In this document: piece after piece, positions 127-63,912 of the stretch | Layout: each line of letters begins with the position of its first letter | Numbering within the stretch: position 1 is the first letter of the stretch | Notes under the pieces: model-generated | What the model was told of the DNA's origin: nothing | Seen by the model: the letters and a program-made list of their open reading frames with translations, nothing else | Database searches by the model: none | Position numbers and translations under genes: made by a program | NCBI GenBank assembly: GCA_028687935.1 | Contig: JAQTZE010000007.1 | Coordinates: 1 to 64,000, forward strand | DNA: 64,000 bases | Reading direction: 5' to 3' | Origin: Sulfurimonas sp. | GTDB taxonomy: Bacteria > Campylobacterota > Campylobacteria > Campylobacterales > Sulfurimonadaceae

Positions 127-1017
127 TCAATCCTCTCTTACAATAAATGCATTTTTAAAATAGCCTAGCGCTTTGTACTCTCTTACTTCTTGTTCATTTT
201 TAAAGCCTTTGATCCAAACTTTAAAAATTCTTCCGTTTTCATTCTCTATATCTTTGATCTCTGCTCTATATCCGTTATCATCTTTAAAAGTTTCCTGCGT
301 TTTAATAGCACTTTCTATTTTAGAAAAAGATGCTATTTGTAAAGCATATGAGGTGCCAGGCGGCAGTACTTTTGGAGCACTTGGACGAGGATGAATAGTT
401 GGTTCAGCAAGATCAATTTTTTTATTCTTATTCATAGGTGAACCAATATCATTTCTATCGTAATATTCCGCTTTATAGTAGCCTAAAACTTCGACTTTCA
501 CTGGAGCCGTACCGTTTTGTATCATATCGAGTTTTCTTGCTGCAGTGTTAGAGAGATCTATGATTCTGGTTCCTATAAAAGGGCCTCTATCATTGATACG
601 GACAACCGTGCTGAGATCATTTTTGGTATTTGTGACTTTTACAATCGTATTCATTGGTAATGTTTTATGTGCCGCAGTCATATCATACATATTATACGTT
701 TCGCCATTTGATGTCAATTTACCATGAAAGTCAGGTCCATACCAGCTCGCATCACCATTATATTCATCCCCGACAGTAGCTGGAGTTGGTTGGTACTCGA
801 TACCATAGACGACATACGATCGCATTGTTGGATGTGCAAAATCTTTTTGATCTAAACTCGTACGATATGCTCCACTATCTTCAGAATATGAAGTCGGGGC
901 TGAAGATGAAGGAGTAGCTGGAGTAGCAGAGCCATTATACGTTCCTACCCCGCGCGTACTACAACCTGTGACAAAGAGCAATGTAGCAGTAAAAAAAAGT
1001 GCATTTAGCTTATTCAT
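127..1017 (-). CDS. rlpA: RlpA-like septal lytic transglycosylase lipoprotein with SPOR domain
   Basis: This is a 296-residue lipoprotein: a short signal ends in the lipobox TGC at about residue 19. A double-psi beta-barrel follows at about 88-170, starting at [12 protein letters not shown] and containing the INDRGPF segment typical of RlpA. A C-terminal SPOR domain (about 222-296, starting YALQIASF) should bind denuded peptidoglycan at the septum. A proline- and serine-rich linker follows the lipid anchor. Its start overlaps the 3' end of mltD by 8 bases, so the two wall enzymes are probably co-translated. The order tatD-mltD-rlpA matches what I remember from Helicobacter. hisB follows after four bases. 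Confidence 0.9.
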
Positions 1018-2236
1018 AAATCTCCAATTTAGTACCTATCTTAAGCATGTCTGTACGTAAATTATTTTTTTCTTTGATATCTGCAATGCTCACTTTATGT
1101 GCCTTTGCAATCGAGACTATAGAGTCACCTTTTTGTACTGTATGAAAAAGTTTTTTAGGAACCTTTTTAAAAGCTTGCGTATTTGGAACAGGCATAATAA
1201 GTGTTTGTTTGATTTTAAGTGCACTCGTTTTGAGATGATTAAATTCCATAATCTCTTTTGTAGAAACACCATATTTCTTGCTTAAAAACAATAAACTGTC
1301 TCCTTTTCCAACTACATGATGCTTATAGCTATTTGCAATAGGCGCCTGAGTATAATTTTGATTAAACTCAGCGAGTTTTTCATAAGGAATATGAATAGCG
1401 TAATTATTCATACTCGGTGGAACAAAATCTTGCTTTAGATGTCTATTTAACTTCTGTAAATCTTCTAAAGGAACATCAATTATTTCAGATAATCTCTGTA
1501 AAGATTCCCCGTGAGAAACTTTTATCGTCGAAACTGGAAATGCACAGGATCTGTTTAAAAGGTATTCACACTCATTTTTTAGCAAAAACTGTTCATCATT
1601 TCCGATTAATGAAAGTGCCACTATTTTTCTTATGTAAAGTCTGCTCTCTTTTGGAATATATTTCTCATCTTGGTCAAGTAAAACAGCTAAATCATCTGTT
1701 CCCGCTTTTTCTATCGCTTTACTGAGTCTACCACTTCCGCAATTGTATGCAAGTGCAGCTAAATACCACTTTCCAAACTGACCATACAACTTTGTGAGAT
1801 ATTTTGAAGCTGCTTCTGTAGATTTCACAAAGTCTTGTCTCTCATCTACATATTGATCTATCTTGAGATTAAATTTTTTCGCAGTTGCGGGCATAAACTG
1901 CCAAAGTCCTGAAGCACGTTTTGCTGAAGATGCACCATTCTCAAAATTTGACTCCGCCATGGCAAGATATAAAAACTCTTGCGGTATTTTATGTTTTGCT
2001 AAAATATCTTTTATTGCTGGAACGAGAAAAGCTGCATCATCCATTTTTTTGATAAAAAATTGCTCTGCACCAGCTTCACTTTTCGTCTCTCTCATTTCAT
2101 TCATCATAGGATCGTAGATAAAGGAAGGATCGATGTTTAAAGATTCTAATATTGCCAACTCTTTATTATAGTTGGACTCATAAGCTAAGTTTGCGTAGAG
2201 AAAAATAGGTAATAACAGTGCTAAAAAATATTTCAA
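1010..2236 (-). CDS. mltD: Membrane-bound lytic murein transglycosylase D with three LysM repeats
   Basis: The 408-residue product starts with a signal peptide, then a lysozyme-like SLT domain (about 60-190). The catalytic glutamate lies in MAESNF, and GLWQFMPATA is the usual second motif. Three LysM-type repeats follow at about 240, 305 and 365, each with the G-D/E-S-L/I pattern for glycan binding. It cuts peptidoglycan in the periplasm. The start codon is TTG (complement of CAA at 2234-2236); GAGAG lies about nine bases upstream and no better ATG precedes the signal sequence. It overlaps rlpA downstream. Confidence 0.9.
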   Translation of the reverse strand: MKYFLALLLPIFLYANLAYESNYNKELAILESLNIDPSFIYDPMMNEMRETKSEAGAEQFFIKKMDDAAFLVPAIKDILAKHKIPQEFLYLAMAESNFENGASSAKRASGLWQFMPATAKKFNLKIDQYVDERQDFVKSTEAASKYLTKLYGQFGKWYLAALAYNCGSGRLSKAIEKAGTDDLAVLLDQDEKYIPKESRLYIRKIVALSLIGNDEQFLLKNECEYLLNRSCAFPVSTIKVSHGESLQRLSEIIDVPLEDLQKLNRHLKQDFVPPSMNNYAIHIPYEKLAEFNQNYTQAPIANSYKHHVVGKGDSLLFLSKKYGVSTKEIMEFNHLKTSALKIKQTLIMPVPNTQAFKKVPKKLFHTVQKGDSIVSIAKAHKVSIADIKEKNNLRTDMLKIGTKLEIYE

Positions 2237-2336
2237 ATTATATTGCTCTCTTGTTGGTTTAAGACCAAGATTTTATCCAAATTTAACTAATAGTGAGCTG
2301 TTATGAGAGTTTCAGAGGCTTTAGGACTCTCTAATA

Positions 2337-3113
2337 TTATGAAATATTAAAGAGTTTCAGGGCGTTGTGCGTTGTCGTATTTTTTATCTCTTTTAAACTT
2401 ATTTCTAGTAATTCAGAGATCTTTTGAGCGACTAAAGTTGTATATAAAGGCTCATTTCTCTCTCCACGATGTGGCATTGGAGTGAGATACGGGCCATCTG
2501 TTTCGATAAGAAGTTTATCATGAGGAATACGTGGCAAAACATTGACAAGTTTTTTGGCATTTTTAAAGGTTAAAACGCCACCAATTCCGAAATAAAAGCC
2601 CTCTTTTGCTAGGCTGAGGAGCTCATCATCTGCATTGTAACAATGTAAAACGCCACCAACTTCTTTGGCATTATATGCAAGCAACAACTCTTTTGAATCT
2701 CTTGAAGCATCACGGATATGGACGATAAGAGGCTTTTTATACTTCTTAGCGATCTCTATCTGCGCTACAAAGACCTCTTTTTGTCTGCGTTTTTCAAGCT
2801 CTTTTTCTTCCTCACTTCCTTCGAGTCTAAAATAATCAAGTCCACATTCTCCGATTGCCACACATTTTTTATGATGCACATAAGCTTCAAAATCAAGCGC
2901 TTCAAACGCAGCCATATCATAAGGATGTACGCCTATAGCAAAATAGACATCATCATATTTTTCGGCAATTTCTACGGCTCTTGGAAGTGTTACAGGGTCT
3001 GCACCGGGGATAATAAAACGCTTTACTCCACTCTCACGCGCACGTGCAAGCACTGCATCCAAATCTGCTTCGTATCTTTTATCATCTAAATGTATATGTG
3101 TATCAATTATCAT
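2337..3113 (-). CDS. tatD: TatD family metal-dependent deoxyribonuclease
   Basis: This 258-residue TIM-barrel hydrolase carries the family signatures in order: the N-terminal DTHIHLD metal ligands, GECGLDY (about 88-94), HIRDA (about 134) and the late ETDGPY motif (about 205). TatD proteins are cytoplasmic 3'-5' DNases of the amidohydrolase superfamily. Length is normal. The start is an ATG inside the last 11 bases of the small membrane-protein gene upstream, so translation is probably coupled. A 100-base gap separates it from mltD. Confidence 0.92.
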   Translation of the reverse strand: MIIDTHIHLDDKRYEADLDAVLARARESGVKRFIIPGADPVTLPRAVEIAEKYDDVYFAIGVHPYDMAAFEALDFEAYVHHKKCVAIGECGLDYFRLEGSEEEKELEKRRQKEVFVAQIEIAKKYKKPLIVHIRDASRDSKELLLAYNAKEVGGVLHCYNADDELLSLAKEGFYFGIGGVLTFKNAKKLVNVLPRIPHDKLLIETDGPYLTPMPHRGERNEPLYTTLVAQKISELLEISLKEIKNTTTHNALKLFNIS

Positions 3114-3273
3114 TTTTTTTCTCTTTCAATTTTTTAACGTAGAGTATATTTTTCACCATTAAATAGATAAAAAAGCAAGAAACTAAAACGCAGCCGCCAG
3201 CTAAAAGTAAGTTGCCTGCCATGAAAAAGTTGTACGCGAGAATAGCAGAAACAATAGAAATTATGAAACACAT
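3103..3273 (-). CDS. Small two-helix membrane protein between recN and tatD
   Basis: A 56-codon frame starts at an ATG 13 bases inside the end of recN and ends 11 bases inside tatD. The product begins MCFIISIVSA, has two hydrophobic stretches (about residues 3-20 and 22-40) and ends in a basic tail (KKLKEKKNDN). The tight overlap at both ends, and the absence of any other frame filling the space, support a real translationally coupled gene. I recognise no family. Its job is unknown; proximity to RecN and TatD may only reflect operon packing. Confidence 0.6.
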   Translation of the reverse strand: MCFIISIVSAILAYNFFMAGNLLLAGGCVLVSCFFIYLMVKNILYVKKLKEKKNDN

Positions 3274-29906: not shown

Positions 29907-31781
29907 ATGACTGCAAAAGAACTTAACCAAGCCATAGAAACATTTTTCACAAGTAAAAAATCTAAAGATTGTTCTACTTATGAATCTCTTATTGAACTTT
30001 TCGATAAACAACCGACATCTGCTCAAGCAAAAGCAATTCACAAACTTGTAGTAAAACATAAAGCATGTCTCTATACATCTTCTGAACATGCAAAACTTCT
30101 CAATGATAGAGAAGCTCAAGCACAACGTGATGCACAAAGAAAAATGATCGCTGATAATGATTCAGATAGTTTTGACATTCTCAAAGAGCATGAACTTCTT
30201 GAGTGGTCTCGCTCAGACTCTCCCGTTCGTATGTATCTTCGTGAGATGGGACAGATCCCTCTTTTAACTAAAGAAGAGGAGATCGAGATCTCAAAAACAA
30301 TCGAACGTGGTGAAGGCATTATTATTGATGCTATCTGTTCTGTTCCTTATCTTATAGACTTTATACTTGACTATAAAGATCCTCTTATCAACCGTGAAAG
30401 ACGCGTAAAAGAACTTTTCAAAAGCTTTGAAGATGATAATGAAAGCGACAATGATGATGAGAGCGAAGAAGAGAATGATGATGAGGGCGAAGAGAAAGAA
30501 GCTGGAGAGAAAAATCTTTCTGCAAAAGATAAAACAAGAGTAGAGAAAGTATCTACAAGCTTTAAAGCACTTGAAAAAGCAAAAAAAGATTGGACTAAAT
30601 CAACTGAAAAAGCTCCAGAAGACCTAGAAGGTGGCGAGATAACTGAAGAGATAGTAAACTATTTCTTGAATCTCACATTCAAAAAAAGTATCCTTAAAGA
30701 GAAACTTCTTGAACTAGGGCCAACTTCAAAACTTATCAACGAACTTGTAAAAGCTATGGAAACTGCACTTAAAAGTGATGACGGTTATGATAGGGAGCTT
30801 AAGCGCCTTGAGTACAAACTGCCACTCTTTAACGCAACACTCAAAGCAAATCACAAAGTCCTTGTTGCAAAAATCAGTGAACTCAACAAAGAAGATATCG
30901 CCAACATGGTTCCTGAAGCGACTATGGTTAGTACATATATGGAGATCAAAAAACTTGTTCAGACAAAAGAAGCTTCAAAAAACAGCTTTGATATGGAACC
31001 TGAAAAACTTGCAGATATCTTAGAGCAGATCAAACGCGGTAAAAATATTTCAGAGATTTCAAAAACAAGAATGGCAAAATCAAACCTCAGACTTGTTGTA
31101 TCTATCGCAAAACGCTACACAAATAGAGGGCTTCCTTTCCTTGACCTTATCCAAGAAGGAAACATCGGTCTTATGAAAGCCGTTGACAAGTTTGAATACC
31201 AAAAAGGATATAAGTTCTCTACCTATGCAACGTGGTGGATTCGTCAGGCTATCTCACGCGCTATCGCTGATCAGGCTAGAACAATCCGTATTCCTATACA
31301 TATGATAGAGACGATCAACCGTATCAACAAAATCATGCGTAAACACCTCCAAGAGCATGGAAAAGAGCCAGATGTTGAAACAATTGCAGAAGAAGTCGGT
31401 CTCTCAGTTGAAAAGGTCAAAAACGTTATCAAAATCACAAAAGAGCCAATCTCTCTTGAAGCACCTATCGGGAGTGAAGAGGATGGTAGATTTGGTGATT
31501 TTATCGAAGATAAAACATCAATATCTCCATCAGATGCAATCCTCAAAGATGACTTACGTGTACAAATCGAGCACGTTTTAGAGCAACTCAATGAAAGAGA
31601 AAAAGCGGTAATCAAGCTGCGTTTTGGAATCATGGATGATGAAAGTGATAGAACACTCGAAGAGATAGGAAAAGAGCTTAACGTGACACGTGAACGCGTT
31701 CGCCAAATCGAATCAAGTGCTATTAAAAAACTTAAACACCCTAAAGTCGGACGTAAACTTAAAAATTATATAGAAGAATAA
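29907..31781 (+). CDS. rpoD: RNA polymerase primary sigma factor (sigma-70)
   Basis: The 624-residue protein has region 1.1 (about 1-75), region 1.2 ([16 protein letters not shown], about 106), and a long acidic non-conserved insert (about 170-200, runs of D and E). Region 2 contains the -10 recognition helix ([17 protein letters not shown], about 432-448), region 3, and region 4 with the helix-turn-helix ([19 protein letters not shown]). It directs transcription of housekeeping genes. The insert is typical of campylobacterotan RpoD. Only one AAACGCA copy lies in the gene, consistent with strong sequence constraint. Confidence 0.96.
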
Positions 31782-35666: not shown

Positions 35667-37082
35667 ATGCTACATACTCTTTCTATAAGATCAAAAGAAC
35701 ATCTCTTGCAACTTTTAGTTTTTGCCATCGGTGTTGCAATATGGTTTGCCCCAGTCCCAGAAGGCCTAAAACCTCAGGCTTGGCATCTTTTTGCTATTTT
35801 TATCACTGCGATTTTGGCAGTGATAGTAAACGCAACTTCTATTCTCACCTCTTCAATCATCGCTTCATCACTCGCTGTTTTGACGGGTACACTTACTCCA
35901 CAGCAGGCATATAGCGGATTTGCAGAAGATTTTATCTTACTCATTATCGTTGCGTTTCTTATCGCCAGGGGTGTTATCAAATCAGGTCTTGGTAAACGCA
36001 TCGCCTTTCTTATCATCAAAAAATTTGGTAAATCAACTCTGGGACTCTCCTACTCCATTATCGCAGCAGATATGTTTATCTCTCCTGCGTTTCCAAGTAA
36101 TACAGCCCGCTCAGGCGTACTCTTTCCTATCGTAAATGCACTCGCCATAGACAGCGGTTCAAAGATAGCTGATGGAACAAGAAAAAAACTCGGTTCATAT
36201 CTCATGATGTCTTCTATGGCAGGACTTACACTCTCCTCAACACTTTGGCTTACAGCGATGGCTGCAAATCCTGCAGGAGCAAAAATGGCGCAAAGTTATG
36301 GGGTAGAGATAAGCTACGGCTCATGGGCTTTGGCTGCTTCTTTACCAATATTACTACTCTTTTTTCTCGTGCCTTGGATACTTTTTAAGATCTATCCGCC
36401 AGAAATTACTAAAACACCTAATGCACCAAAAATAGCACAAGAAGCTCTCACAAAAATGGGAAAAGTAAGCAAAAATGAGTGGACCATGGCGGCAACATTT
36501 ATTGGTATGGTCTTTTTGTGGGTGATGGCTGAATCTTTTGGATTTAACAAAACAGCCGTTGCGTTTATGGGTCTTGGAGTTTTGATGCTGAGTAATATCT
36601 TTACTTTAGAAGATATGAAAGAAGAAGGCAATGCCCTTGGAACGCTCATCTGGTTTGCTATACTCTTTTCTCTGAGTGTCAATCTCGATGCACTTGGCTT
36701 TATGTCTTGGATAGGGTCTAATATATCAGCGATGCTAGTTGGGCTCTCTTGGCCTTTTGTCTATCTCTCTTTGATACTCTCTTATGTGTTTATCCACTAT
36801 TTCTTTGTTTCACAAACAGCGCAGATGCTGGCTCTTTTTTCTGTCTTTTTGGGGGTTGGGATAAACACAGGAGTTCCTAGTGAGCTTATGGCTTTGATGC
36901 TTCTTTTTGCGACCAACTTCAACGCTATCATCACACCGCAAGGCTCTTCAGCAAATGTTATCTATGTGGGAAGCGGCTATATTGAAGCTGGGGAAATTTA
37001 TAAAGTAGGCGGTATTATCACGCTTGTCAATACCCTTGTATTTTTAAGTGTGGGAAGTGCGTGGATACTTTTTATCAGCTAA
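35667..37082 (+). CDS. SLC13/DASS family anion transporter
   Basis: Starting at the ATG behind AAAGGAGTACC, the protein has 471 residues and about 11-12 transmembrane helices. FPSNTARSGVLFP (about 141-153) is the first Ser-Asn-Thr substrate/sodium motif, and ITPQGSSANVIYVGSGY (about 425) the second. Such carriers import dicarboxylates, sulfate or phosphate with sodium. In an autotroph, dicarboxylate or sulfate are both plausible. Its stop codon is one arm of the 37080-37100 hairpin. Confidence 0.85.
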   Translation: MLHTLSIRSKEHLLQLLVFAIGVAIWFAPVPEGLKPQAWHLFAIFITAILAVIVNATSILTSSIIASSLAVLTGTLTPQQAYSGFAEDFILLIIVAFLIARGVIKSGLGKRIAFLIIKKFGKSTLGLSYSIIAADMFISPAFPSNTARSGVLFPIVNALAIDSGSKIADGTRKKLGSYLMMSSMAGLTLSSTLWLTAMAANPAGAKMAQSYGVEISYGSWALAASLPILLLFFLVPWILFKIYPPEITKTPNAPKIAQEALTKMGKVSKNEWTMAATFIGMVFLWVMAESFGFNKTAVAFMGLGVLMLSNIFTLEDMKEEGNALGTLIWFAILFSLSVNLDALGFMSWIGSNISAMLVGLSWPFVYLSLILSYVFIHYFFVSQTAQMLALFSVFLGVGINTGVPSELMALMLLFATNFNAIITPQGSSANVIYVGSGYIEAGEIYKVGGIITLVNTLVFLSVGSAWILFIS

Positions 37083-37100
37083 ACGCAACTCTTGCGTTTA
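37080..37100. terminator. Hairpin formed by two inverted AAACGCA heptamers, ending in both stop codons
   Basis: TAAACGCAA (37080-37088) and TTGCGTTTA (37092-37100) form a perfect nine-base stem with a three-base loop CTC. The left TAA is the stop of the transporter on the plus strand, and the right TTA is the stop of the CitE-like gene on the minus strand. Its position makes it a bidirectional terminator. The arrangement closely parallels inverted uptake sequences used as terminators in Neisseria and Haemophilus. Confidence 0.85.
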
Positions 37101-45557: not shown

Positions 45558-46406
45558 TTACTTCAAAAAATACTCTTGTTCAAGAGTCCTTCCTATGCAC
45601 TTAACAGTTTCAATAAGAGATGCAATACTGGGAGTATTTCCGATAAGAGTTTGATATTTCTCATCATGCGTCTTGGACAGGTCTTTTATACCTTTTCTCT
45701 TTAAAAGACTTTCTATGTTATTAGGTATAAAGAAAGAGCCTCGGGTACCCACTATCGGCTCGTACTCTGTTTGATAGATAAATATTCCTGCCAAATCTAT
45801 ATCTCCAAAGTGTAGATAATCATTACTGATTTTAGATAGTAAGTGTCGTAGACTCTTACTTCTTTCAATAAAAAGTATTTTCTTATCTGGAAAAATAGTT
45901 CTGTCTTTTAACTTCCCGCTAATGTTTTCAAAGTTTTCAACACCAACAATTAAAATATCTTCATCGAAAGTAATATGGTTCTCCTTATGAACAAACAATG
46001 CACATCCTTTAGGAAAGCCTAGTTTTACTTCTTCTCCATTAATTTTCACACTTATATTGTCAGGACTATCCATATGAAGACCACTTTTAGGATTTACACT
46101 CTTTAACTTTGTATTGATGCCAAGCTCTGAAAGCTCTGACCTAGATAGTCCATCAGCAGTAAGAGCTAAGATGTAATTACGAAGATTATCTATGAATAAA
46201 TAGTTTGCTAAATAGTTAGTAAATGCATCTTGATTGCCCATAGAAATGTTAAATGAGTTTCTAGTTACTTTGACTTCCATAAGCGAACCTATTTCAATCA
46301 TTTCGTCTAATGTTTTTATAAAGGATTTTCCAAAAGAACTTCTCTTGACAGTCTCGCCCTGCTCTATTAAAAGCAAGACTCTAACATCTCTAAGATTTAC
46401 ACTCAT
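45558..46406 (-). CDS. jetD: Wadjet JetD (MksG): TOPRIM-type nuclease
   Basis: The 282-residue protein has a C-terminal TOPRIM domain: a strand followed by VENFEN with the metal glutamate (about 156), and HFGDIDLAGI with the paired aspartates (about 197-206). It ends in LEQEYFL, as JetD proteins do. The first 140 residues are helical/winged-helix-like. In Wadjet, JetD nicks or cuts the small circular DNA that the JetABC condensin loads and loops. It is shorter than many described JetD proteins. Its ATG overlaps jetC by four bases. Confidence 0.85.
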   Translation of the reverse strand: MSVNLRDVRVLLLIEQGETVKRSSFGKSFIKTLDEMIEIGSLMEVKVTRNSFNISMGNQDAFTNYLANYLFIDNLRNYILALTADGLSRSELSELGINTKLKSVNPKSGLHMDSPDNISVKINGEEVKLGFPKGCALFVHKENHITFDEDILIVGVENFENISGKLKDRTIFPDKKILFIERSKSLRHLLSKISNDYLHFGDIDLAGIFIYQTEYEPIVGTRGSFFIPNNIESLLKRKGIKDLSKTHDEKYQTLIGNTPSIASLIETVKCIGRTLEQEYFLK

Positions 46407-49400
46407 TGTCTCATTGCACCCTGTATTATCTTTGTTTTTCCATTGATTATTTTATAGTGATATATGCATTTATAAAAAGCAGGGATCTTTACATCAGGAG
46501 CAGCATTGAGAAATAGTATTCCTGCATTGTTGGCAAACTTGATAACCTCTCGCATGTTTCTTTGGTCAATCTTTCCGATTTCGTCTAGCAGTACATGAAC
46601 ATTCGCCTCTGTGTTTTTACGAGTCATTGATAGAACTGTATCAAGCATTGCAACATAGAGTAGAGTTTTAACAATAACAGAAGTACCCTCAGAACCAATT
46701 TGTTTTCGAGCCATAATCCACCCAGTAGATTTACCATTTTCAACAGCCATCATCTCAACACTAAATGTGTCAGCGACAGTAATCTCTTTCTCTTTTTCAG
46801 TTTTTAGATAATCCAATAACTTATCAAACCTATCTAGAATAAGATGAGTGGATTTTGAACTCTTAGCGGGTTCTGCGAATAAAGATTTAGCGTCACCATA
46901 AGGAATATCAATTTCGCTTATCGCCTGAAGCTCTGAAAGTATTCTATTTTCGCTTTTTACATACCTTAATCCTATATCATCTAGTACTGGAATTTCTCTA
47001 ACGGCGGAAGAGAGGCGTTTGCTTATTTTATCAATGCTTGATTTGATCTTCTCACTTTGGGTATTAAGATTGCCATACCTTTGCGATATATTACTCTGTA
47101 TCCCTTTGATAGATTTTGCAACAAGTTCTTTTGTTTGAGAGATACCACCACCCTGCATAAACATCTTCAAACTTTCAATTGAGGAGATTGTTTCAGAAGT
47201 AGTTTTGTTCTTATAAGTAAACCACACATGCTTATCATTACCTATCTTGCCTACTAGCCTTGTAAGAGCACTATCTAGTGAAAAATATAACTCTCTATTA
47301 GAGTTTAATAGCGATGATATTTTAGAAAATACTGCATATATGTTTTCAGCTTCAATCGCGTTTGTATTTTCCAATAGTTTATTCTCAACTAGGTATTTTT
47401 TATAGTCTGGAGTATCGAACACTTCTTTTGTTCTCTCTATAGCTTTTTTTGTGCTATCAAATTTCTCTTGTGCTACTCTCACCTTTTTCTCTAGTGCTTG
47501 AAGTTCTCCATAAATGAGAAGTTTTTGTGTCTTACTTTCTTCATCAGCCTTTGTAAATTTAGCTTGATTTATAGACAGTTCTTCTGATAGTTGTGGGATT
47601 TTATCAAAAAACTTTTTGTCTTCTCTCCAGACTGCTACCTCATTAATATACTGCTTCACTTTATCTAAAACTTTTAACGATTCGTCAAGGGCTGTCCTAG
47701 CCTTATGAAGCTCTTCTTTACTAACGCCACCATCCAAAAGTGCTTTAGTTTTGTTTTCTTCTATTTCTAAGACTTTGGCTTTAAGTGCTGTATCGAGTTT
47801 TAGTATTTCATCTTTTAGTTTTTCTTTGAGTGATGATATCTCAGCAGTTGAATTCTTTTTATACTCGTGAAACTCATCTTTTGTTTTTTGAATACGAATA
47901 GAGATAATATTATTTAGCTCATCTTTAGTGTTCTCGGACTCCTGTAACTCTTTTACTTTCTCGGTTAACTCTTGTTCTGCTTTTTTAATTGCATCTTTCC
48001 ATGCTTGAAGAGAATTTGTTACTTCAAAGTGCAACTCATCCTTAGAAGAGACAATAAGTGTTTTTAATTTTAGGATTTTACCTTCAAGCTCCTCAATGTC
48101 ATTGTTTGCAAAGAAACTATCTTTTTGGAGTTTAGCCTCAGCTTTAGTGAGCTCTTCTTTTTTCTCAGAGAGTTGTTTGTCAACATCTAGTCTTAGCTTT
48201 ATAATTAGATTTTTTTGTTCATTAATCTTTGCAGAGATGTTAGCATGAGAGTACTCCGACTCTTCAAGGTTCTGAGTATTGATTTGAAGTCCGTACATGC
48301 TCTCTATCTGTTGTGAACTTGAAGGCTCTAACACCTTGCTGTATAAAACTTGATCCTTAAGGAGTGATGTAAGTGTGAACTCAACATCTGCATGATTTTC
48401 CCTGATGTAGTGAAGTAGAGTGTCTTCTGATACATTAAGTAGTTTTTGGAGTGTCGCAATTTCTTGTTCATGAGGCTTTATCATTAAGCGATAGCGCTCC
48501 TGCGCAGAAATGTCAGCATCCTCTATTCTTCTTTCAATGCCTTTTCTTTGCTCAAGTAGTGATTGTTGTTTCTCTTGTGTTTGACTAATCTGTGCTTCTA
48601 AAGCCAAAAGTTCAGCCTCAAGCTTGCTAATATGTGCAATTAACGCATCTACTTTTTTACTAAATGGGTTATTTGCCTTTATTAGTGCAAGAGATATATT
48701 GGCCTTTGACTTTAGCTCCTGGTACTCTTTTATTTTTTGATTAGCCTCTCTTAATTTGGCATCAAATAGATCGGTAATACTTTTAATATCAGATTCTACT
48801 TTAGACTCTTTTTCTTCTAGTTGATCTCTAATTTCTTTAATCTTATTCTCTGTTATTTCAGAAAGTGCTTGCTTATTAGATGATGCATGTGTTTGTGCCT
48901 GCAGTAACTGATTGTCGTATAGCTGCGTAACATTATGCTGTTCGCCAACAAGAGCCGTGTATGTTACATTAGCATCCTTATGATTAGATTCAAATATAGA
49001 CAAGCTATCAACAAGAATTACTTTTTGCATAAAGCTGTCATCGTATTTTGCTTTTAAACTCTCAGCTCTTTGTAATTCTCTTTTAGAAAATTCGTAATTA
49101 CTCTTAGCCTCATCCCTACTTGCGTTTAGTGATGCCATTATTTCATCAAATTGTTCTTTTTTAACTTGCTGCTCTTTGTTTGAATTATGTAACTTTTCTT
49201 CAAAGTTTGCTAGGTTTGATGTGTTAAATTTATGATTCGCAACTGCTAGTTTCATTTTCGATACAAGCTCATCTTGTTCTTGAGTAAACTGTGTATATTC
49301 TTTAAATATACTAGCTATTAAACTCTTTTGTGTTTCATAAACCTTAATTGCATAATAGTCACTCATAGAATCGTATAGCTGCTCTTTTATATTGGCAATA

Positions 49401-50053
49401 TCTATTGTTTCATCACTACCAAAACTATTAGAGATTGCTTTTTCAAATGAACCTGTTTCAACACGAGAGCTTAAAAATATACTTGATTGTACATCATGTA
49501 TTAAATCATAATTCCCCTCTGCTTTCATAAGTGCAAAATCTCTAAACTCTTTAAATGTTTTGTCATTTTTAAGTGAATCTCCGCCGTAGAGTATTTCTCT
49601 ATATTTACTTGATGAAATAACTTGAGAACTTGGCTTAAATCCTTTGGCAATAAAACTTGAGAGTATTTCCTCTCTTTCTTTAATTGTTTTTCCATCTTCC
49701 AAAACAAGCGATTTTAAATCCAAATCCATATCAAGAGACATAAATCTATAAGCTATCTGATTACCATTTGCATAGGTCATCAGAAGAGTATTTCCATAAA
49801 TTCCCTCATACTCGTAGAATGCATATGAGTTCATAAATGGATATGTATATTTAAGCCAGTTGTCTTTTCCTTCTCCTCGATGAATACCTAATTTATCACT
49901 CTTGCTTGAGCCATAGAAAAAGAGTACCGCCTGCATAGTAGTTGTTTTGCCGGCTCCATTTGTACCAGTAAAAAGAGTGTTTCCTGAAACATCAACCTCT
50001 CCATAAAGAAATCTACCTGTATTTACAAATGTTATTTTTTTAAGCCCTATCAT
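46403..50053 (-). CDS. jetC: Wadjet JetC (MksB): SMC-like condensin ATPase
   Basis: The 1216-residue protein has Walker A (TGTNGAGKTTTM, about 29-40) and Walker B (VHVLLDEIGKID, about 1155) at opposite ends. Very long coiled coils (about 270-470 and 600-900) lie between, and a hinge-like middle near 540-590. A signature-like GTSVIVKTLLYV precedes Walker B. This is the MksB/JetC layout that extrudes DNA loops and senses plasmid topology. It is coupled to jetB (one-base overlap) and jetD. The sequence contains only one AAACGCA, at 49121. Confidence 0.9.
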   Translation of the reverse strand: MIGLKKITFVNTGRFLYGEVDVSGNTLFTGTNGAGKTTTMQAVLFFYGSSKSDKLGIHRGEGKDNWLKYTYPFMNSYAFYEYEGIYGNTLLMTYANGNQIAYRFMSLDMDLDLKSLVLEDGKTIKEREEILSSFIAKGFKPSSQVISSSKYREILYGGDSLKNDKTFKEFRDFALMKAEGNYDLIHDVQSSIFLSSRVETGSFEKAISNSFGSDETIDIANIKEQLYDSMSDYYAIKVYETQKSLIASIFKEYTQFTQEQDELVSKMKLAVANHKFNTSNLANFEEKLHNSNKEQQVKKEQFDEIMASLNASRDEAKSNYEFSKRELQRAESLKAKYDDSFMQKVILVDSLSIFESNHKDANVTYTALVGEQHNVTQLYDNQLLQAQTHASSNKQALSEITENKIKEIRDQLEEKESKVESDIKSITDLFDAKLREANQKIKEYQELKSKANISLALIKANNPFSKKVDALIAHISKLEAELLALEAQISQTQEKQQSLLEQRKGIERRIEDADISAQERYRLMIKPHEQEIATLQKLLNVSEDTLLHYIRENHADVEFTLTSLLKDQVLYSKVLEPSSSQQIESMYGLQINTQNLEESEYSHANISAKINEQKNLIIKLRLDVDKQLSEKKEELTKAEAKLQKDSFFANNDIEELEGKILKLKTLIVSSKDELHFEVTNSLQAWKDAIKKAEQELTEKVKELQESENTKDELNNIISIRIQKTKDEFHEYKKNSTAEISSLKEKLKDEILKLDTALKAKVLEIEENKTKALLDGGVSKEELHKARTALDESLKVLDKVKQYINEVAVWREDKKFFDKIPQLSEELSINQAKFTKADEESKTQKLLIYGELQALEKKVRVAQEKFDSTKKAIERTKEVFDTPDYKKYLVENKLLENTNAIEAENIYAVFSKISSLLNSNRELYFSLDSALTRLVGKIGNDKHVWFTYKNKTTSETISSIESLKMFMQGGGISQTKELVAKSIKGIQSNISQRYGNLNTQSEKIKSSIDKISKRLSSAVREIPVLDDIGLRYVKSENRILSELQAISEIDIPYGDAKSLFAEPAKSSKSTHLILDRFDKLLDYLKTEKEKEITVADTFSVEMMAVENGKSTGWIMARKQIGSEGTSVIVKTLLYVAMLDTVLSMTRKNTEANVHVLLDEIGKIDQRNMREVIKFANNAGILFLNAAPDVKIPAFYKCIYHYKIINGKTKIIQGAMRQ

Positions 50054-50649
50054 TACTCTTCATCCTCTATCTCATTCTTTTTTGCAACTTCATTATTTAT
50101 TCTCTGTACTGATTCATAAAACTCTGTTAGGTAATTATATGAAGAACCAACGAGATAGTTATTGAATATGTCGTCAAGCGGTATCATGCATCCGAATTTA
50201 CTAAGTGTATCAAATATGCTCACGCATCTTTCTGTGAGCGTTTTACCTTTAATACTACGCATATTTTCAAGTTCTTCCCTTCGTAAAGTATCTCCCTTGA
50301 GAGCTATTTCGAGTTCTGAGGGTGAACCTTTCCATCCTACATTGAAGTTAGGAAAAACACCTAAGACTAGAGTTATAATGTCTAGCATGCTAATCATCTG
50401 ATTCATCCTGTGCTCTTTTGCTGAATCAACAAGGTCTTTAATATAAAAAAGAAAGAAACCATCGCCCTCTTCCAAATCGTAACCAAGAGGCTCAAAGTAA
50501 GCTCTAAGAGTAGGAAGATAACTCTCACAATCTATAAACATCTTTCTTTGCTCTGGTTCAGGATGATTATCAATAATAAAGTTTCCACCTCTTAGAGTGT
50601 CAAAGATAGCTTTTGTTGTGCTTGGAAGTCTATTGGTATCTATCATCAT
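50053..50649 (-). CDS. jetB: Wadjet JetB (MksE): kite subunit
   Basis: The 198-residue winged-helix protein (LPSTTKAIFDTLRGGNFI at the start, then FEPLGYDLEEGDGFFLFYI) has the size and placement of the MksE/JetB kite subunit that bridges the condensin kleisin and head. Its ATG overlaps the jetA stop by four bases. The family call depends mainly on position between jetA and jetC. Confidence 0.85.
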   Translation of the reverse strand: MMIDTNRLPSTTKAIFDTLRGGNFIIDNHPEPEQRKMFIDCESYLPTLRAYFEPLGYDLEEGDGFFLFYIKDLVDSAKEHRMNQMISMLDIITLVLGVFPNFNVGWKGSPSELEIALKGDTLRREELENMRSIKGKTLTERCVSIFDTLSKFGCMIPLDDIFNNYLVGSSYNYLTEFYESVQRINNEVAKKNEIEDEE

Positions 50650-51878
50650 AATATTGAGTCCTGTAATGTTTTAGCTGTGTTAGAAATTGAATAAGCACTC
50701 ATGCACCTATAACCATAAACCATCTCATCCTCTTGTGTAAAAACAAGTTCTTGCGAGTTAGTGATAATTGTGTCCAGATAAGCTGCAAGTAGCTCTTCTC
50801 CATCAAGCTCTGGTTCTTTATGCTGTAAGTATGTTAAAAAACTACCCTCTTGCTCTTTTGCATCTATATATTCATAAAGAATATCACTATAATCAACTGT
50901 CACAATAATGGCTTCTTCCAAGAAATCATCTTCAATAGGTTCATTTAAGTTCGCTTTTTTCTCAATCATATTTGGCTTATTTAAACTGGCCAAATACCTT
51001 AGCTCAAACTCTTCTTCGTTGGCATAGTCTGGATAAAATTTAATCTGGACATTTCTTTTCTCAACAACGGACAAACCAGAAAGCAAGGGTTCGCGTTTGG
51101 CGTTAAAAATAAGCTCATACATATTTGTTTTGCTACGGATCTCTTTTCTGTCACTCAGCTCTTTTAGCTCAACAAGATGTTTATGAAAATGAATACTTCT
51201 CTCTGTATCCCTAATATAATCAATAACAATTTGTGTCGTTTTAATAAGAGTATCTCTTATGGTGAGTATATATTCTCCTACTCGGAACCTTTGGAGGTCT
51301 AGAGCATTATCATTTATCTGTTCAAAGAACTCCAGATGAACTCTCATGTTCCTGCTTATAAATTCAAGAGTTTCATAGAATTCATCAAGCATTTCATTAT
51401 AACCTTTGAGTTCTTGAAGTTTTTCTCTATTCGTAGCAGCGGAACGATATGTAAATTCAACATGATGTTGCATACTCTTGAGCGAATCTAAAAGATTATT
51501 GGGAATTCTTCTAAGATATCTATGTATATTTCTTGTGTGCTTGTGTGCATCTCCACTGACCTCAAACGAAGTGCGATAAAGCTCTATTGATTTTGATATC
51601 TTAAGAAAAATGTTTTTATAGTCAAAAAGCTCTTCATCATAATTATCAACCAACTGAGCCTCTAAAAACCTTGTAAGATGTTCCCCTAGTAAAACTTCAT
51701 TGTTGAAAATTTCAATAAGATTATTTGCTTCTAATTCTTCAATAGAAATATCATCAATCAAATTTCTCGCATTGGAAAGACTCATCTGCCTATTTTTACT
51801 CTCAAAAACAGCATTGAGAAAATCCTTTTTAGTTCTAAGCACAGAAATTAGCTCTAAAAAGTTTCTAGCTCTAGTCAT
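50646..51878 (-). CDS. jetA: Wadjet JetA (MksF): kleisin-like subunit
   Basis: The 410-residue protein is the first gene of the operon. It is largely helical: an N-terminal winged-helix-like part (LISVLRTKKDFLNAVFESK), a central helical bundle (about 90-250), and an acidic C-terminal half (about 300-360). This fits the MksF/JetA kleisin of Wadjet. Which Wadjet subtype it belongs to cannot be decided by eye. AAAGG lies eight bases upstream of its ATG. Confidence 0.83.
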   Translation of the reverse strand: MTRARNFLELISVLRTKKDFLNAVFESKNRQMSLSNARNLIDDISIEELEANNLIEIFNNEVLLGEHLTRFLEAQLVDNYDEELFDYKNIFLKISKSIELYRTSFEVSGDAHKHTRNIHRYLRRIPNNLLDSLKSMQHHVEFTYRSAATNREKLQELKGYNEMLDEFYETLEFISRNMRVHLEFFEQINDNALDLQRFRVGEYILTIRDTLIKTTQIVIDYIRDTERSIHFHKHLVELKELSDRKEIRSKTNMYELIFNAKREPLLSGLSVVEKRNVQIKFYPDYANEEEFELRYLASLNKPNMIEKKANLNEPIEDDFLEEAIIVTVDYSDILYEYIDAKEQEGSFLTYLQHKEPELDGEELLAAYLDTIITNSQELVFTQEDEMVYGYRCMSAYSISNTAKTLQDSIL

Positions 51879-58371: not shown

Positions 58372-60084
58372 ATGAGTATTCCTATTTATACATATGATGC
58401 GATTGTCGTTGGTGCAGGTCTTGCGGGATGTGCAGCAGCGAGAGAGTTACAAAACGCAGGAAAAAAAGTTGCTGTAATCACAAAGCTTCACCCACTTAGA
58501 AGTCATTCTGGTGCAGCACAAGGTGGCATAAACGCAGCGTTTAGTGACAAAGACAGTGTAGAGTTACACGAATTTGATACGGTAAAAGGTTCAGACTATC
58601 TTGCTGATCAAGATGCAGTTGAATTTATGTGTCAAAAAGCACCTGAGACTATCAGATGGATAGAAAGAATGGGAGCTGCGTTTAGCAGAACTCCAGATGG
58701 AAAGATTGCACAACGCCCTTTTGGTGGTCAATCTTCTCCTCGTGCATGTTTTGCAAAAGATAGAACAGGTTTGACGCTTTTACAAACTATCTACGAACAA
58801 GCACACCGTGCAGGTGTAAAGTTTTGGGATGAGTGGTATGCTGCGGATATCATCTATAAAGATGGAAAAGTATCGGGTGTCGTTGCGTTTAATATCCGTG
58901 ATATGCAAACAGTTATCTTCAATGCAAAATCTGTAATGTTCGCAACAGGCGGATATGCACGTTCATACAAGATTAACTCTAACGCACACGCAAACACAGG
59001 TGATGGTCTCTCTATCGTAGCACGTCATGGTCTTCCACTCGAAGATATGGAGTTTGTTCAGTTTCACCCATCTGGTTTATCAGGTAATGGTGTTTTGATC
59101 TCTGAAGCTGCTCGTGGTGAAGGTGGAAGACTTTTCAACTCACTTGGCGAGAGATTTATGGAAAAATACGCTCCAAACGCAATGGAACTCGCTTCACGCG
59201 ACGTTGTTGCTCGCGCTATTTTAAATGAGATCAGAGAAGGACGCGGTGTCGGTCCAAGAAAAGATGCTGTGTTTATCGATGTAACACACCTTGGAAAAGA
59301 TCTCATTATGCAAAAGCTTCCAGAGCTTCGTGAACTAGCTATCACATTTTTAGGTCTTGATATGATCAAAGAGCCTATCCTTATCTCTGCAACTGCACAC
59401 TACTCTATGGGTGGTATTCCGGTTAATATCGCAGGAAATGTCCGCAAAAACAATGAAGAGTTTGTAGAAGGTTTCTATGCTGCAGGTGAATGTTCATGTG
59501 TATCCGTGCATGGTGCAAACCGTCTTGGTGCAAACTCTGTGCTTGAAGCACTCCTCTTTGGTCGTTTTGTTGGTAAGACAATGGTCAAAGAGATTGATAC
59601 TATCGAACTCCGTCCCGCAACTGTTTCTGATGCTGATACTGCTCTCGCTGAGATGCAGTTTATCCTTCAAAATAATGGGGATGAAAGCATTACAGTGCTT
59701 CGTGAAGAGTTACAACAATGTATGACAGCAAACGCAGGTGCGTTTAGAACAAAAGAGACACTTGAAATTGCTATTGCTACAATAAAAGATTTACGTGCAA
59801 GATTTCAGCATATTCGTATCAAAGACAAATCAACAGTTTTCAATACTGAACTGCAAGAAGCTATCGAATTTGGCCACATGCTTGACTACTCTGCGTTTAT
59901 CGTAGAGAGTGCTGTTGCAAGAAATGAGAGCCGTGGTGCACACTATAGAGAAGATTTTGAAACACGTGATGATGAAAACTTCTTAAAACACACAATGGCT
60001 TATATGGATAACAACGGAAATATCGAACTTGATTACATGGATGTTGTTCTAGGCAAACATGAGCTTAAAGCTAGAAACTACTAA
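58372..60084 (+). CDS. sdhA: Fumarate reductase/succinate dehydrogenase flavoprotein (type E)
   Basis: The 570-residue flavoprotein has VVGAGLAGCAAAREL (about 12-26), the FAD-histidine region RSHSGAAQGGINAAF (about 44-58), the substrate arginine/histidine stretches SPRACFAKDRTG and HYSMGGIPVN (about 343), and GANRLGANSVLEAL. It has no Tat or Sec signal, so it acts in the cytoplasm, unlike periplasmic Mfr of Campylobacter. It may run either way; in the reductive TCA cycle it would reduce fumarate. It leads an operon with sdhB and sdhE. Confidence 0.92.
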   Translation: MSIPIYTYDAIVVGAGLAGCAAARELQNAGKKVAVITKLHPLRSHSGAAQGGINAAFSDKDSVELHEFDTVKGSDYLADQDAVEFMCQKAPETIRWIERMGAAFSRTPDGKIAQRPFGGQSSPRACFAKDRTGLTLLQTIYEQAHRAGVKFWDEWYAADIIYKDGKVSGVVAFNIRDMQTVIFNAKSVMFATGGYARSYKINSNAHANTGDGLSIVARHGLPLEDMEFVQFHPSGLSGNGVLISEAARGEGGRLFNSLGERFMEKYAPNAMELASRDVVARAILNEIREGRGVGPRKDAVFIDVTHLGKDLIMQKLPELRELAITFLGLDMIKEPILISATAHYSMGGIPVNIAGNVRKNNEEFVEGFYAAGECSCVSVHGANRLGANSVLEALLFGRFVGKTMVKEIDTIELRPATVSDADTALAEMQFILQNNGDESITVLREELQQCMTANAGAFRTKETLEIAIATIKDLRARFQHIRIKDKSTVFNTELQEAIEFGHMLDYSAFIVESAVARNESRGAHYREDFETRDDENFLKHTMAYMDNNGNIELDYMDVVLGKHELKARNY

Positions 60085-61074: not shown

Positions 61075-61084
61075 GAGTAAAGAT

Positions 61085-61966
61085 ATGAAAAAATTAAAAT
61101 ATGCACTTTTTACGGGTTGTACAGCAAAACAAAGTACTCCTGAGCAAATGATGTCAACTCTCGCCGTAGCAGATAAGCTCGGAATCGAACTTGTAGAACT
61201 CACAGAGGCTTCTTGTTGTGGAGCTTCTCACCTTCAGGATTATGATGACTTTTTGTCTTTAGTTCTCAATGCAAGAAATATCGCGTATGCTGAAAAGCAT
61301 GGTCTCACAATGGTCACTATTTGTAACACATGTCAACTCAACACTGCCATGACTAAACACCGTTTAGATAAAGATGCTGCATTAAAAGCACGTGTTAATG
61401 AAAAGCTTGGAGAAGTTGGTTTGGAGTACAAAGGTACTTCTATGGTAACACATTTCTTGTATGCTATTATTGATGATTTTGGTCTTGATAAAATCAAGGA
61501 GATGGTTGTCACACCACTGAGCCAATTTAACATTGCACCATTTTATGGTTGTCACAATATCCGTCCTTCTGAACTTCAGAATGAAACGCATAAAAAACCT
61601 GAAAGCGCATATCGCCCTACTTCACTAGATGATCTTATCATCGCATGTGGCGGTATGAATGTTGATTATGAAGAGAAAAATAAATGCTGTGGTTTCCATG
61701 TTGAGCTTCAGGCACCTCGTACAGCTGCAATCCTTACAGGAAACGCAATTGCAGGGGCTATGGATAACAATGCAGACTGGATGGTCACACCTTGCCCTCT
61801 TTGTCACTTAAAACTTGATACACAAACAGGCCATGCTTCTGAAGCAATCGGCCGTGAAGTAGCACTTCCTGTACTTCATATGCAACAGATGCTAGGTCTT
61901 GCTCTTGGCTGTTCTGCTGAGCAACTTGGATTGAAACATCACCTTACAAAAGTAAACTTTATCTAG
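61085..61966 (+). CDS. sdhE: Succinate dehydrogenase type E membrane-docking subunit (HdrB-like)
   Basis: The 293-residue protein has FTGCTAKQSTPE at the start and two CCG domains: SCCGASHLQ (about 43) with CNTCQLN (about 80), and KCCGFHVELQ (about 205) with CPLCHLKL (about 243). This is the HdrB-type subunit that replaces the haem-bearing membrane anchors. It links the complex to the membrane and quinone, partly by amphipathic helices. A ten-base-stem hairpin follows. Confidence 0.9.
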   Translation: MKKLKYALFTGCTAKQSTPEQMMSTLAVADKLGIELVELTEASCCGASHLQDYDDFLSLVLNARNIAYAEKHGLTMVTICNTCQLNTAMTKHRLDKDAALKARVNEKLGEVGLEYKGTSMVTHFLYAIIDDFGLDKIKEMVVTPLSQFNIAPFYGCHNIRPSELQNETHKKPESAYRPTSLDDLIIACGGMNVDYEEKNKCCGFHVELQAPRTAAILTGNAIAGAMDNNADWMVTPCPLCHLKLDTQTGHASEAIGREVALPVLHMQQMLGLALGCSAEQLGLKHHLTKVNFI

Positions 61967-61973
61967 CTATCAC

Positions 61974-61997
61974 ATCAAAGGAAGTAATTCCTTTGAT
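61974..61997. terminator. Hairpin after sdhABE
   Basis: ATCAAAGGAA (61974-61983) and TTCCTTTGAT (61988-61997) form a perfect ten-base stem with the loop GTAA. No T-run follows, but its place after the operon supports a terminator or mRNA-stabilising role. Confidence 0.7.
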
Positions 61998-62071
61998 TAG
62001 ACTACATTTAGGGCTCACAAACCTAAGTATTTTTTATAAAACTTCACAAACTACAATCATATGGAAATCTT

Positions 62072-62848
62072 ATGTCAAACTCAATAGAAATCATCTCATG
62101 GAACGTCAATGGCATACGTGCTGTAGCGAACAAAGAAGCGCTTAAATGGATAGATGAGCGACAGACTGATATCTTATGTCTCCAAGAGATAAAAGCGCTT
62201 GAGGAGCAGATACCGCAAGACCTTTTTGCTAAAGAGTATCAAGAGAGCTTTGTAAACTCCGCAACCAAAAAAGGCTACAGCGGCACGATGACATGGAGTA
62301 CACTTCAAAGTGATTATCACTCAACATGTGATCATGTAGATACCACGGCAGAAGGTCGAATCGTTGAGACCCATTATGGCGATATCGCCCTTTTTAATGT
62401 CTATTTTCCCAATGGACAAAAAGATGAAGAGCGCTTGGCGCATAAGATGAAGTTTTATGATAACTTTTTAGCCCACTGTGAAGCCTTACGCAAAGAGGGA
62501 AAATCTATCATCATCTGTGGAGATGTCAATACAGCTCATAAAGAGATAGACCTCAAAAACCCAAAAGCAAACTCGAAAACTTCGGGCTTTTTACCAATAG
62601 AGCGAGAGTGGATAGACAAACTGCTTGACCATGGATATATTGATACCTTTCGATACGTCAACGGAGACGAAGCTGATCGATATAGTTGGTGGTCGTATCG
62701 TGCCTCTGCTAGAGTTAACAATGTCGGCTGGAGAATAGATTATTTCTTCATCTCAGAAGATTTAGCAGAAAACCTTGAAGATGCGTTTATCCTTGATTAT
62801 ATTGAAGGCTCAGACCATTGCCCAGTCGGAATTAGGCTCAGTATTTAA
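62072..62848 (+). CDS. xthA: Exodeoxyribonuclease III (AP endonuclease)
   Basis: The 258-residue protein has ISWNVNGIRAV (about 6-16), LCLQEIKA (catalytic glutamate, about 39), CGDVNTAHKEIDL (about 149) and the terminal GSDHCPVGI. It repairs abasic sites and has 3'-5' exonuclease activity. It meets mogA end to end with no spacer. Confidence 0.95.
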   Translation: MSNSIEIISWNVNGIRAVANKEALKWIDERQTDILCLQEIKALEEQIPQDLFAKEYQESFVNSATKKGYSGTMTWSTLQSDYHSTCDHVDTTAEGRIVETHYGDIALFNVYFPNGQKDEERLAHKMKFYDNFLAHCEALRKEGKSIIICGDVNTAHKEIDLKNPKANSKTSGFLPIEREWIDKLLDHGYIDTFRYVNGDEADRYSWWSYRASARVNNVGWRIDYFFISEDLAENLEDAFILDYIEGSDHCPVGIRLSI

Positions 62849-63382
62849 CTACTTTGCCTTTGGTCTGAAAGCTTTTATTACATCTTCATTTGTCTCTATA
62901 AACGGTCCTTCAATAAGGTCTATACAGTAAGGAACAGCTGGAAAAACCGCATCCAAACATTCCCGAATAGATTTTGGTTTACCAGGAAGATTAATAATGA
63001 GAGATTTTCCTCGTATACCAGCAGTCTGACGTGATAAAATGGCTGTAGGGACATATTGCAGACTCACCTGACGCATAAGTTCACCAAAACCAGGCATCAT
63101 CTTTTGACATACATTTTCAGTTGCCTCAGGCGTTACATCTCGAAGCGCCGGACCAGTTCCACCCGTTGTCACGACCAAACAACATCCTGCCTCATCACAC
63201 AGCTCTTTCATAGTCGCTTCAAGTATATCTTGCTCATCAGGAATACATCTATAGACTATCTCAAACTCACTTTTGAGATAATCTTTCATAGTTTCTTGAA
63301 TAGCAACTCCAGAAATATCTTCATAGATACCTTTACTAGCTCTGTCACTCGCGGTTATTACACCTATTTTAATTTCACTCAT
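62849..63382 (-). CDS. mogA: Molybdopterin adenylyltransferase
   Basis: The 177-residue protein has GVITASDRASKGIYEDISG (about 7-25), TTGGTGPALRDVTPEAT (about 72-88) and the substrate-loop NLPGKPKSI (about 132). It adenylylates molybdopterin before molybdenum insertion. It implies molybdoenzymes such as nitrate or formate dehydrogenase elsewhere. It follows bioV on the same strand. Confidence 0.93.
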   Translation of the reverse strand: MSEIKIGVITASDRASKGIYEDISGVAIQETMKDYLKSEFEIVYRCIPDEQDILEATMKELCDEAGCCLVVTTGGTGPALRDVTPEATENVCQKMMPGFGELMRQVSLQYVPTAILSRQTAGIRGKSLIINLPGKPKSIRECLDAVFPAVPYCIDLIEGPFIETNEDVIKAFRPKAK

Positions 63383-63390
63383 TTTCTCTC

Positions 63391-63912
63391 CTAATCTCTT
63401 TGTAAAAAATGATTTGCATCTTTCATATATGTCACTGTCGCATTACTTAAAAAAAATACTCGCGCTGCGTTTACATCGATAATCTGATCCTCACCGCCAA
63501 GATAAACTTCTATCTTGACACCTTTATGATGGAGCCATGCAAGATCTGAGAGAAGCCATTTATACTCCAAAAGCTCTTCAAGTTCTTGAGGTGATGTCTC
63601 TTTATGCAATATCTCACTGCGTTTATAAGGCAAAAAGGATGTTGCTATAAACTGATCGAGATACGCTTCTTTACTTTTTGTATAGGCGAGTCTTTGCAGC
63701 CGTTTAAACTTCTCTGTTTTTGTCTGAAAAAACGCAGGAGAGAAAAGTTGCAATGTATCCACTCTTTGCGCTCTTTCAAGCTCTTCTTTTACATATTTCA
63801 AGGCTTTGATAGCACCATAACTAAAACCACAAACGCAGTAATCAGAGTCTATAATAAAATTCTCAAAAAAATGAGACTCATCTGTAAGAGAAAATCCGCT
63901 ATAAAACTTCAT
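63391..63912 (-). CDS. bioV: BioV-like pimeloyl-ACP methyl ester esterase
   Basis: The 173-residue short alpha/beta-hydrolase has the nucleophile elbow CGFSYGAIKAL (serine at about 31), a GGEDQIID segment with an aspartate (about 142), and a C-terminal histidine in DANHFLQ. The size and opening MKFYSGFSL match BioV of Helicobacter, as I remember it. It would free pimeloyl-ACP for biotin synthesis. No bio genes lie next to it. It overlaps the upstream gene by 14 bases. Confidence 0.75.
   Translation of the reverse strand: MKFYSGFSLTDESHFFENFIIDSDYCVCGFSYGAIKALKYVKEELERAQRVDTLQLFSPAFFQTKTEKFKRLQRLAYTKSKEAYLDQFIATSFLPYKRSEILHKETSPQELEELLEYKWLLSDLAWLHHKGVKIEVYLGGEDQIIDVNAARVFFLSNATVTYMKDANHFLQRD

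Follow-up and report, generated by a model that had tools for sequence, protein, structure and literature searches.

In a 64,000-base stretch of a Sulfurimonas genome (contig JAQTZE010000007.1, 37.5% GC; hereafter the window), we found the seven-base word AAACGCA, counted together with its complement TGCGTTT, to be the top-ranked 7-mer, with 131 copies (73 on the plus and 58 on the minus strand) or about one per 490 bases. We consider AAACGCA, in the extended form HAAACGCAR, to be probably the self-recognition word of an independently arisen DNA uptake system in the section of the genus around Sulfurimonas, a reading that draws on sequence comparisons. A first-pass annotation of the window had put the word at about 128 copies (about 72 and 56 on the two strands) where base composition would give roughly eight, and had proposed an uptake-like or genome-signature sequence. 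Its counts proved nearly exact, and its interpretation gains support from the failure of a codon-based null, the presence of the word throughout the genome, the existence of related words (dialects) in other members of the genus, and conservation at orthologous places.

The window count lies far above the copies expected from base composition (8.0), an order-1 Markov model (9.9) or an order-2 model (15.6), while order-4 and order-5 models predict 72 and 114 copies. We set the order-5 model aside as an unfair null, because the hexamers that make up the word occur mainly inside it (131 of 149 AACGCA and 131 of 172 AAACGC), so that a model trained on this DNA contains the word itself and thereby nearly reaches 131. 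For coding DNA we preferred synonymous-codon shuffling, which preserves proteins and codon use, and obtained a mean of 16.8 copies upon shuffling across pooled genes (200 shuffles) and 20.6 upon shuffling within genes, compared to 123 observed. The order-5 comparison, which the annotation had put forward as a check, thus nearly reproduces the count, yet the codon null leaves it unexplained. By the same shuffling, AAACGCA ranked first among the 7-mers of the window (60-shuffle comparison) and AAACGCAG first among the 8-mers (64 copies versus 4.1 expected). The sharp edge of the word that had been noticed earlier is real: CAACGCA, GAACGCA and TAACGCA occur 7, 1 and 10 times, and AAACGCC, AAACGCG and AAACGCT 15, 13 and 13 times. 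The second most frequent 7-mer, AAAAGAG/CTCTTTT (101 copies), was rejected as a second tag and is read as codon context, as it strongly favours one strand of the genes (72 versus 23) and is high in genus members with and without AAACGCA.

Across the whole source genome (2,581,018 bases) we counted 4,758 copies of AAACGCA (2,407 and 2,351 on the two strands) compared to 740 (383 and 357) for a control word, AAACGCA read backwards, and the strand balance claimed for the window hence holds genome-wide. Each of the 20 sampled stretches of the genome had a density of about 1.5-2.75 copies per kb, and the 19 outside the window showed no drop to background. In 483 kb of the genome, the word occurred at 2.06 copies per kb in open reading frames (ORFs) of at least 80 amino acids (aa) and at 1.85 per kb outside them, which bears out the claimed indifference to coding and non-coding DNA; the companion claim of indifference to gene orientation needs amending, as reading frame matters and the gene-sense orientation is the commoner among coding copies (72 versus 51). 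The extended consensus HAAACGCAR was obtained from 887 copies and again from 984 copies, with G at position -1 in just 0.08 of them, a purine favoured at +7 (G 0.48, A 0.39), C favoured at +8 (0.38), and almost no information past -1 and +10.

The even spread, with no word-free gap above 4.2 kb in the 483 kb and every sampled stretch within the density range given above, would suit a chromosome-organising or other housekeeping DNA-binding site, such as one for a nucleoid protein, for segregation or of the HIP1 kind. We regard such a site as quite improbable, since the spacing is near-exponential and not regular (coefficient of variation 1.12), the balanced strands do not fit a polar guide of the KOPS kind, the word is non-palindromic unlike HIP1, and most of the genus lacks it. 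Adjacent copies lie on the same strand in 53% of cases. The orientation of the word was also independent of replication, with 255 plus and 252 minus copies in loci of positive GC skew and 198 plus and 182 minus in loci of negative skew (Fisher p 0.63). A replication-strand word of the KOPS or Chi type was rejected as well on contig C4, where a supposed run of plus-strand copies turned out not to be real (20 plus, 15 minus).

Within ORFs, the word gathers where synonymous choice permits. The 122 window copies inside the chosen ORFs fell mostly into the frames A AAC GCA (51) and T GCG TTT (41). Asn-Ala following a base A was spelt AAC GCA in 332 of 465 cases in the source genome, compared to 9 of 113 after C, 4 of 34 after G and 13 of 77 after T, and to 18 of 349 after A in genus members that lack the word (29 loci). 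The pressure of the word bends protein sequence too: Asn-Ala and Ala-Asn number 689 and 539 in the source genome, and Ala-Phe and Phe-Ala 580 and 508, whereas in the wordless set the counts are 694 versus 733 and 531 versus 638 (difference p 0.0001 and 0.0002). We rejected codon usage and amino-acid composition as explanations on the basis of the codon shuffling, the effect of the preceding base and the wordless relatives.

These counts also bear on a mutation or repair bias, for example from T to C in AAA[T/C]GCA, which would leave the word without a function. Both favoured frames are indeed a single T/C base from a common alternative, and the coding part of the window is poor in AAATGC (38 copies, with 80.5 expected). 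This loss of 42 is, however, too small for the AAACGC gain of 120 (163 versus 43.1), and these sums led us to reject a T-to-C repair bias. Furthermore, AAACGCA and AAATGCA together reach 1,009 in 443 kb, compared to 244 by an order-1 model, and the use of dipeptides is shifted as well. We therefore hold a mutation bias to be very improbable and nearly excluded.

Copies of the word tended to be conserved between orthologous genes. At sites with unchanged amino acids, G071 (third-position identity 0.66) kept 27 of 32 copies, compared to 11.6 expected, and G097 (third-position identity 0.57) kept 30 of 53, compared to 13.4 expected, with expectations taken from other 7-mers in the same reading frame. 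Orthologous copies of the word were hence retained 2.2-2.3 times as often as other 7-mers. When amino acids were disregarded, 29 of 41 aligned copies were kept in G071 and 38 of 94 in G097.

A Mks/Wadjet-like block of the window (Table 1) contained 1 copy where 14.2 were expected (Poisson 1e-5, for a block picked after the gap had been seen). Of the four longest stretches without the word in the 483 kb, three lie in defence-like genes, an association noticed afterwards and confined to these gaps. The longest gap held PDC-S41 (E 3.7e-294), which PADLOC lists as a candidate defence gene.

AAACGCA enrichment is lineage-specific. The word reached at least 2.5 times its reversed control in 31 of the 135 genomes of the genus (the lowest being G192 at 2.7 and G200 at 2.9, with the next genome below 2), in none of the 93 that represent the family's other genera (highest about 1.9), and in one of the 230 drawn from the phylum's other families (G399, 831/326 = 2.55). 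The genus of G399 is mildly enriched, with 12 further members at about 1.9 to 2.3; in samples of three members of that genus we counted 10 versus 3.2, 32 versus 20.1 and 20 versus 11.0 expected by codon shuffling, and AAACGCA was not the top word there.

Altered words, which are new, saturate the genomes of other genus members. We located them by codon-shuffle scans of relatives that lack AAACGCA and then counted them against their reversed controls in the 135 whole genomes, a check made because high codon-shuffle scores are insufficient on their own, as other words score 10 to 14 in four genomes of another family. CTCACGCA stood at 962/33 (count/control) in G001, 948/39 in G203, 785/23 in G190, 767/25 in G188, 757/23 in G039, 688/23 in G147 and 621/22 in G031, weakly at 99/8 in G197, and near control in the remaining genomes. 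AAACGCCA stood at 693/13 in G019, 636/24 in G151 and 389/11 in G193, among others, and reached at least 8 times its control in 17 genomes, 16 of which carry AAACGCA too. AACACGCA was found only in G207 (992/17). In the strongest genomes the excess of a dialect is thus 20 to 58 times the reversed control, and at least one of the four words is present in 41 of the 135 genomes (G197 included) and none in 94, by the thresholds used. Upon alignment, ACGC(C)A emerges as a core common to the four words. The base after ACGCA is a purine in 0.87 of AAACGCA copies, 0.77 to 0.90 of CTCACGCA copies and 1.00 of AACACGCA copies, compared to 0.38 for AAACGCCA. Alongside CTCACGCA, the word CTCACGTG is raised as well (12 versus 1.1 in G039; 5 versus 0.3 in a 20-kb sample of G001). 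Words are also retained in reduced genomes, with AAACGCA kept in G119 (1.6 Mb, 99% complete) and CTCACGCA in G031 (1.3 Mb, 99% complete).

The words follow phylogeny. On a tree of rpoD DNA that covered 81 members of the genus (35 of them word genomes; wordless members sampled; G156, G189, G196, G202 and G220, which are word genomes with no usable rpoD match, left out), word presence required 8 changes, compared to at least 20 with shuffled labels (mean 26.4, 200 shuffles). The CTCACGCA genomes together with G197 form one clade (SH-aLRT 99), and CTCACGCA required 2 changes on a careful tree when G197 was scored as wordless; the AAACGCCA labels on the tree took in 11 genomes, compared to 17 at the final threshold. 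The AAACGCA genomes are scattered across several clades of this tree, the root of which is unsure, and gain and loss are not confidently separable because the outgroup does not fall on one side of a branch. G172 has slight remnants of AAACGCA (414/280) and AAACGCCA (115/52), and such remnants in wordless neighbours suggest decay of the word, with G172 and G197 as apparent cases.

The dialects and their distribution bear directly on two further explanations. A Chi-like signal, recognised by an AddAB or RecBCD-type helicase-nuclease at broken-end repair and favoured as a protection of the chromosome, would account for the 7-base length, the high density, the orthologous conservation and the scarcity in the defence-like block. 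Chi is, however, usually stable within a genus and biased to the leading strand, while the orientation of AAACGCA is independent of replication, four words in one genus would require repeated changes in the specificity of a repair enzyme, and 94 of the 135 genus members have none of the four. AddAB is used by Campylobacterota, according to the part of PMC5665897 that treats it. On balance we consider a Chi-like signal rather unlikely. Alternatively, the word could be a methylation mark, with a methyltransferase recognising it and methylated self DNA being either taken up preferentially or protected from restriction. Non-palindromic targets of 7-8 bases are usual for some methyltransferase types. 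The phylum does have methylation-dependent uptake, which in Campylobacter jejuni acts through methylated RAATTY (as described in a section of PMC10046745). We judge a methylation mark to be unlikely, since methylation alone explains neither an excess of 6 to 58 times control nor graded dialects whose core is conserved. The m5C motifs given for S. denitrificans in the relevant portion of PMC8112702 are CGCG, CCNGG, GATC and CCGG.

We preferred an uptake-sequence type over a mere genome signature because of the dialects with a shared core, the orthologous conservation and the near-absence from the defence-like block. Taken together, the iteration, the neutral orientation, the conservation, the dialects around a core and the apparent scarcity in acquired genes make up, by analogy, the pattern of the DNA uptake sequences (DUS) of Neisseriaceae and the uptake signal sequences (USS) of Pasteurellaceae. 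We infer that uptake drives the word. The word would be bound by a component of the competence machinery, a competence-pilus pilin being the likeliest, that prefers DNA bearing it; fragments from kin would be imported through ComEC and recombined, and alleles with the word would replace alleles without it by molecular drive. An altered receptor preference could convert a genome to a new dialect, and a lost preference could let the word decay. Going further, we lean, with somewhat less confidence than for the self-recognition role itself, toward an independently evolved third uptake-sequence system, in Campylobacterota, whose 7-8-base word would have changed at least three times around the core ACGC(C)A, with neighbouring species that differ in dialect exchanging less DNA.

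An uptake machine is likely to be present in the genus, judging from its genes. A ComEC-type gene occurs in 123 of the 135 genus members; in the source genome it lies at C24:6401-7678 (L219; 100 bits), with two prepilin-type genes adjoining priA some 7-8 kb away, and pilins resembling those of the type II secretion system (T2SS) lie elsewhere (C39; named by eye). Prepilin-type N-termini were found in 25 of the 25 genomes searched. G119, in which AAACGCA stands at 11 times control, gave 2 prepilin-type matches at E 0.01, compared to 8 in G000, and, among the matches listed, has a single prepilin-type gene by its comEC. The few prepilins in this genome point to the comEC/priA locus, if the receptor is a pilin. 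The pilin next to priA (L219:14525-14953) was found at E 1e-10 in 113 of the 135 genus members, with and without the word; its presence where the word is absent, together with its lack of a match in several word genomes, led us to reject it as the established receptor, and it remains a candidate only. Among the genomes where this pilin was unmatched, G207, G175 and G182 do have ComEC.

Comparison with known systems shows where the likeness holds. The DUS of Neisseriaceae, as characterised in parts of PMC3630211 and PMC2397512, likewise occur in thousands of copies on both strands and in and outside genes, have dialects that track phylogeny around a common core (CTG, compared to ACGC(C)A in the present genus), and in some genomes coexist as two dialects, as is the case here. 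DUS are also more conserved than the adjacent sequence and absent from genes of recent acquisition (in the portion of PMC2397512 dealing with this); AAACGCA is likewise conserved, and its near-absence from a defence-like block may be a parallel to the latter. They differ in belonging to another phylum and in being unrelated words of 10-12 rather than 7-8 bases, with a preference for terminators that was not found for AAACGCA; intergenic inverted pairs, many in Neisseriaceae (PMC3630211, in the passages concerned), are scarce around this word. The USS of Pasteurellaceae are similarly built on a short core word that recurs hundreds to thousands of times, come in two types that both retain GCGG as their inner core (from the part of PMC12616744 on these types), and have one orientation commoner in genes (PMC2346458, in the section on orientation), as do the 72 versus 51 copies here, whereas the A/T-rich tract that flanks USS has no counterpart in the nearly uninformative flanks of AAACGCA. 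RAATTY of Campylobacter jejuni is a class of methylated 6-base palindromic sites, in contrast to an iterated non-palindromic word. Chi sites resemble AAACGCA in being short, over-represented and non-palindromic, and differ in their leading-strand bias. HIP1 of cyanobacteria is also highly iterated in genes and between them, but it is the palindrome GCGATCGC (frequent in cyanobacteria according to part of PMC1939737), while AAACGCA is not its own complement.

Several observations weigh against an uptake role. The Mks/Wadjet-like block has a lower GC content (0.338 versus 0.379), and the one gap among the four longest that is not defence-like, ranked second or fourth in length, resembles core genes by eye (a BamA-like gene among them). 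Single-base variants of AAACGCA show no clear excess, and no terminator preference was seen among the 86 copies in 46.5 kb outside ORFs, where 2 of 36 close inverted pairs of the 483 kb lie; inverted pairs in terminators are customary for uptake sequences but do not strictly define them. ComEC and the priA-adjacent pilin also occur in wordless members, and this pilin had no match at E 1e-10 in word genomes including G207, G175, G163, G169, G182, G192 and G197. That G399 passes the 2.5-fold level outside the family slightly lowers the odds of an independent uptake system. Mainly open-access literature yielded no report of transformation in Sulfurimonas. We hence file the word as one that appears to work like an uptake sequence, its membership of that class being unproven and argued from sequence.

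The portions of the uptake-word literature cited here (PMC12616744, PMC1939737, PMC2346458, PMC2397512) cover two families, Neisseriaceae and Pasteurellaceae. In a partial search, with subscription journals mostly outside it, nothing joined Sulfurimonas with a DNA uptake sequence and no such word was found for the phylum. If the uptake reading is true, an independent origin in another phylum and in environmental bacteria would mean that genome self-tagging evolves repeatedly. The genus would then offer gain, change and decay of a self-recognition code side by side, with two-word intermediates, and thereby a natural dialect series in which to study the origin and change of such a code and its part in isolating species. 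The word could also be added to DNA so as to make these bacteria genetically tractable.

Table 1. Features of the 64,000-base window.
Feature	Position	Strand	Remarks
Word field, 131 copies	296..63837	both	first copy starts at 296, last copy 63831-63837
rpoD	29907..31781	+	NCBIfam NF004208, E 4.4e-214; basis of the genus species tree
Intergenic inverted pair, AAACGCA at 37081 and TGCGTTT at 37093	37081..37099		between the ends of convergent ORFs, 37082 (+) and 37098 (-)
Mks/Wadjet-like block	45558..51878	-	JetD-like gene, DUF3584 gene, MksE and a fourth gene; longest word-poor stretch of the window
JetD-like protein, first of the block			PADLOC JetD1, E 3.7e-8 on the last third (C-terminus)
DUF3584 protein, 1216 aa			Pfam, E 4.3e-38
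MksE			Pfam, E 1.1e-12
410-aa gene	50646-51878		no Pfam or PADLOC match; MksF by position only
Close inverted pair within an ORF, offset 9 bases	59730..59745		in sdhA/frdA-like gene 58372-60084 (NCBIfam match)

The inverted pair between the convergent ORFs is the sole intergenic one (within 40 bases) in the window. Some words other than the four dialects were raised elsewhere. AAGCGGT was raised in samples of G079 (20 versus 3.6) and resembles, probably by chance, the Pasteurellaceae core ACAAGCGGT (given in part of PMC12616744). In G277 and G297 (genus g30, of another family), TTGAGCG, AGGGGCGT and other 7- and 8-mers were above the codon-shuffle expectation (scores of 10 to 14). In G117, CACCGACA, like AAGCGGT in G079 and the next word below, scored 6 to 11 by codon shuffling in samples of 20-73 kb. 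The palindrome-like ACATGTA (TACATGTA) was raised in this same wordless genome (45 versus 12.0) and also in G053 and G141, and is possibly another iterated word.

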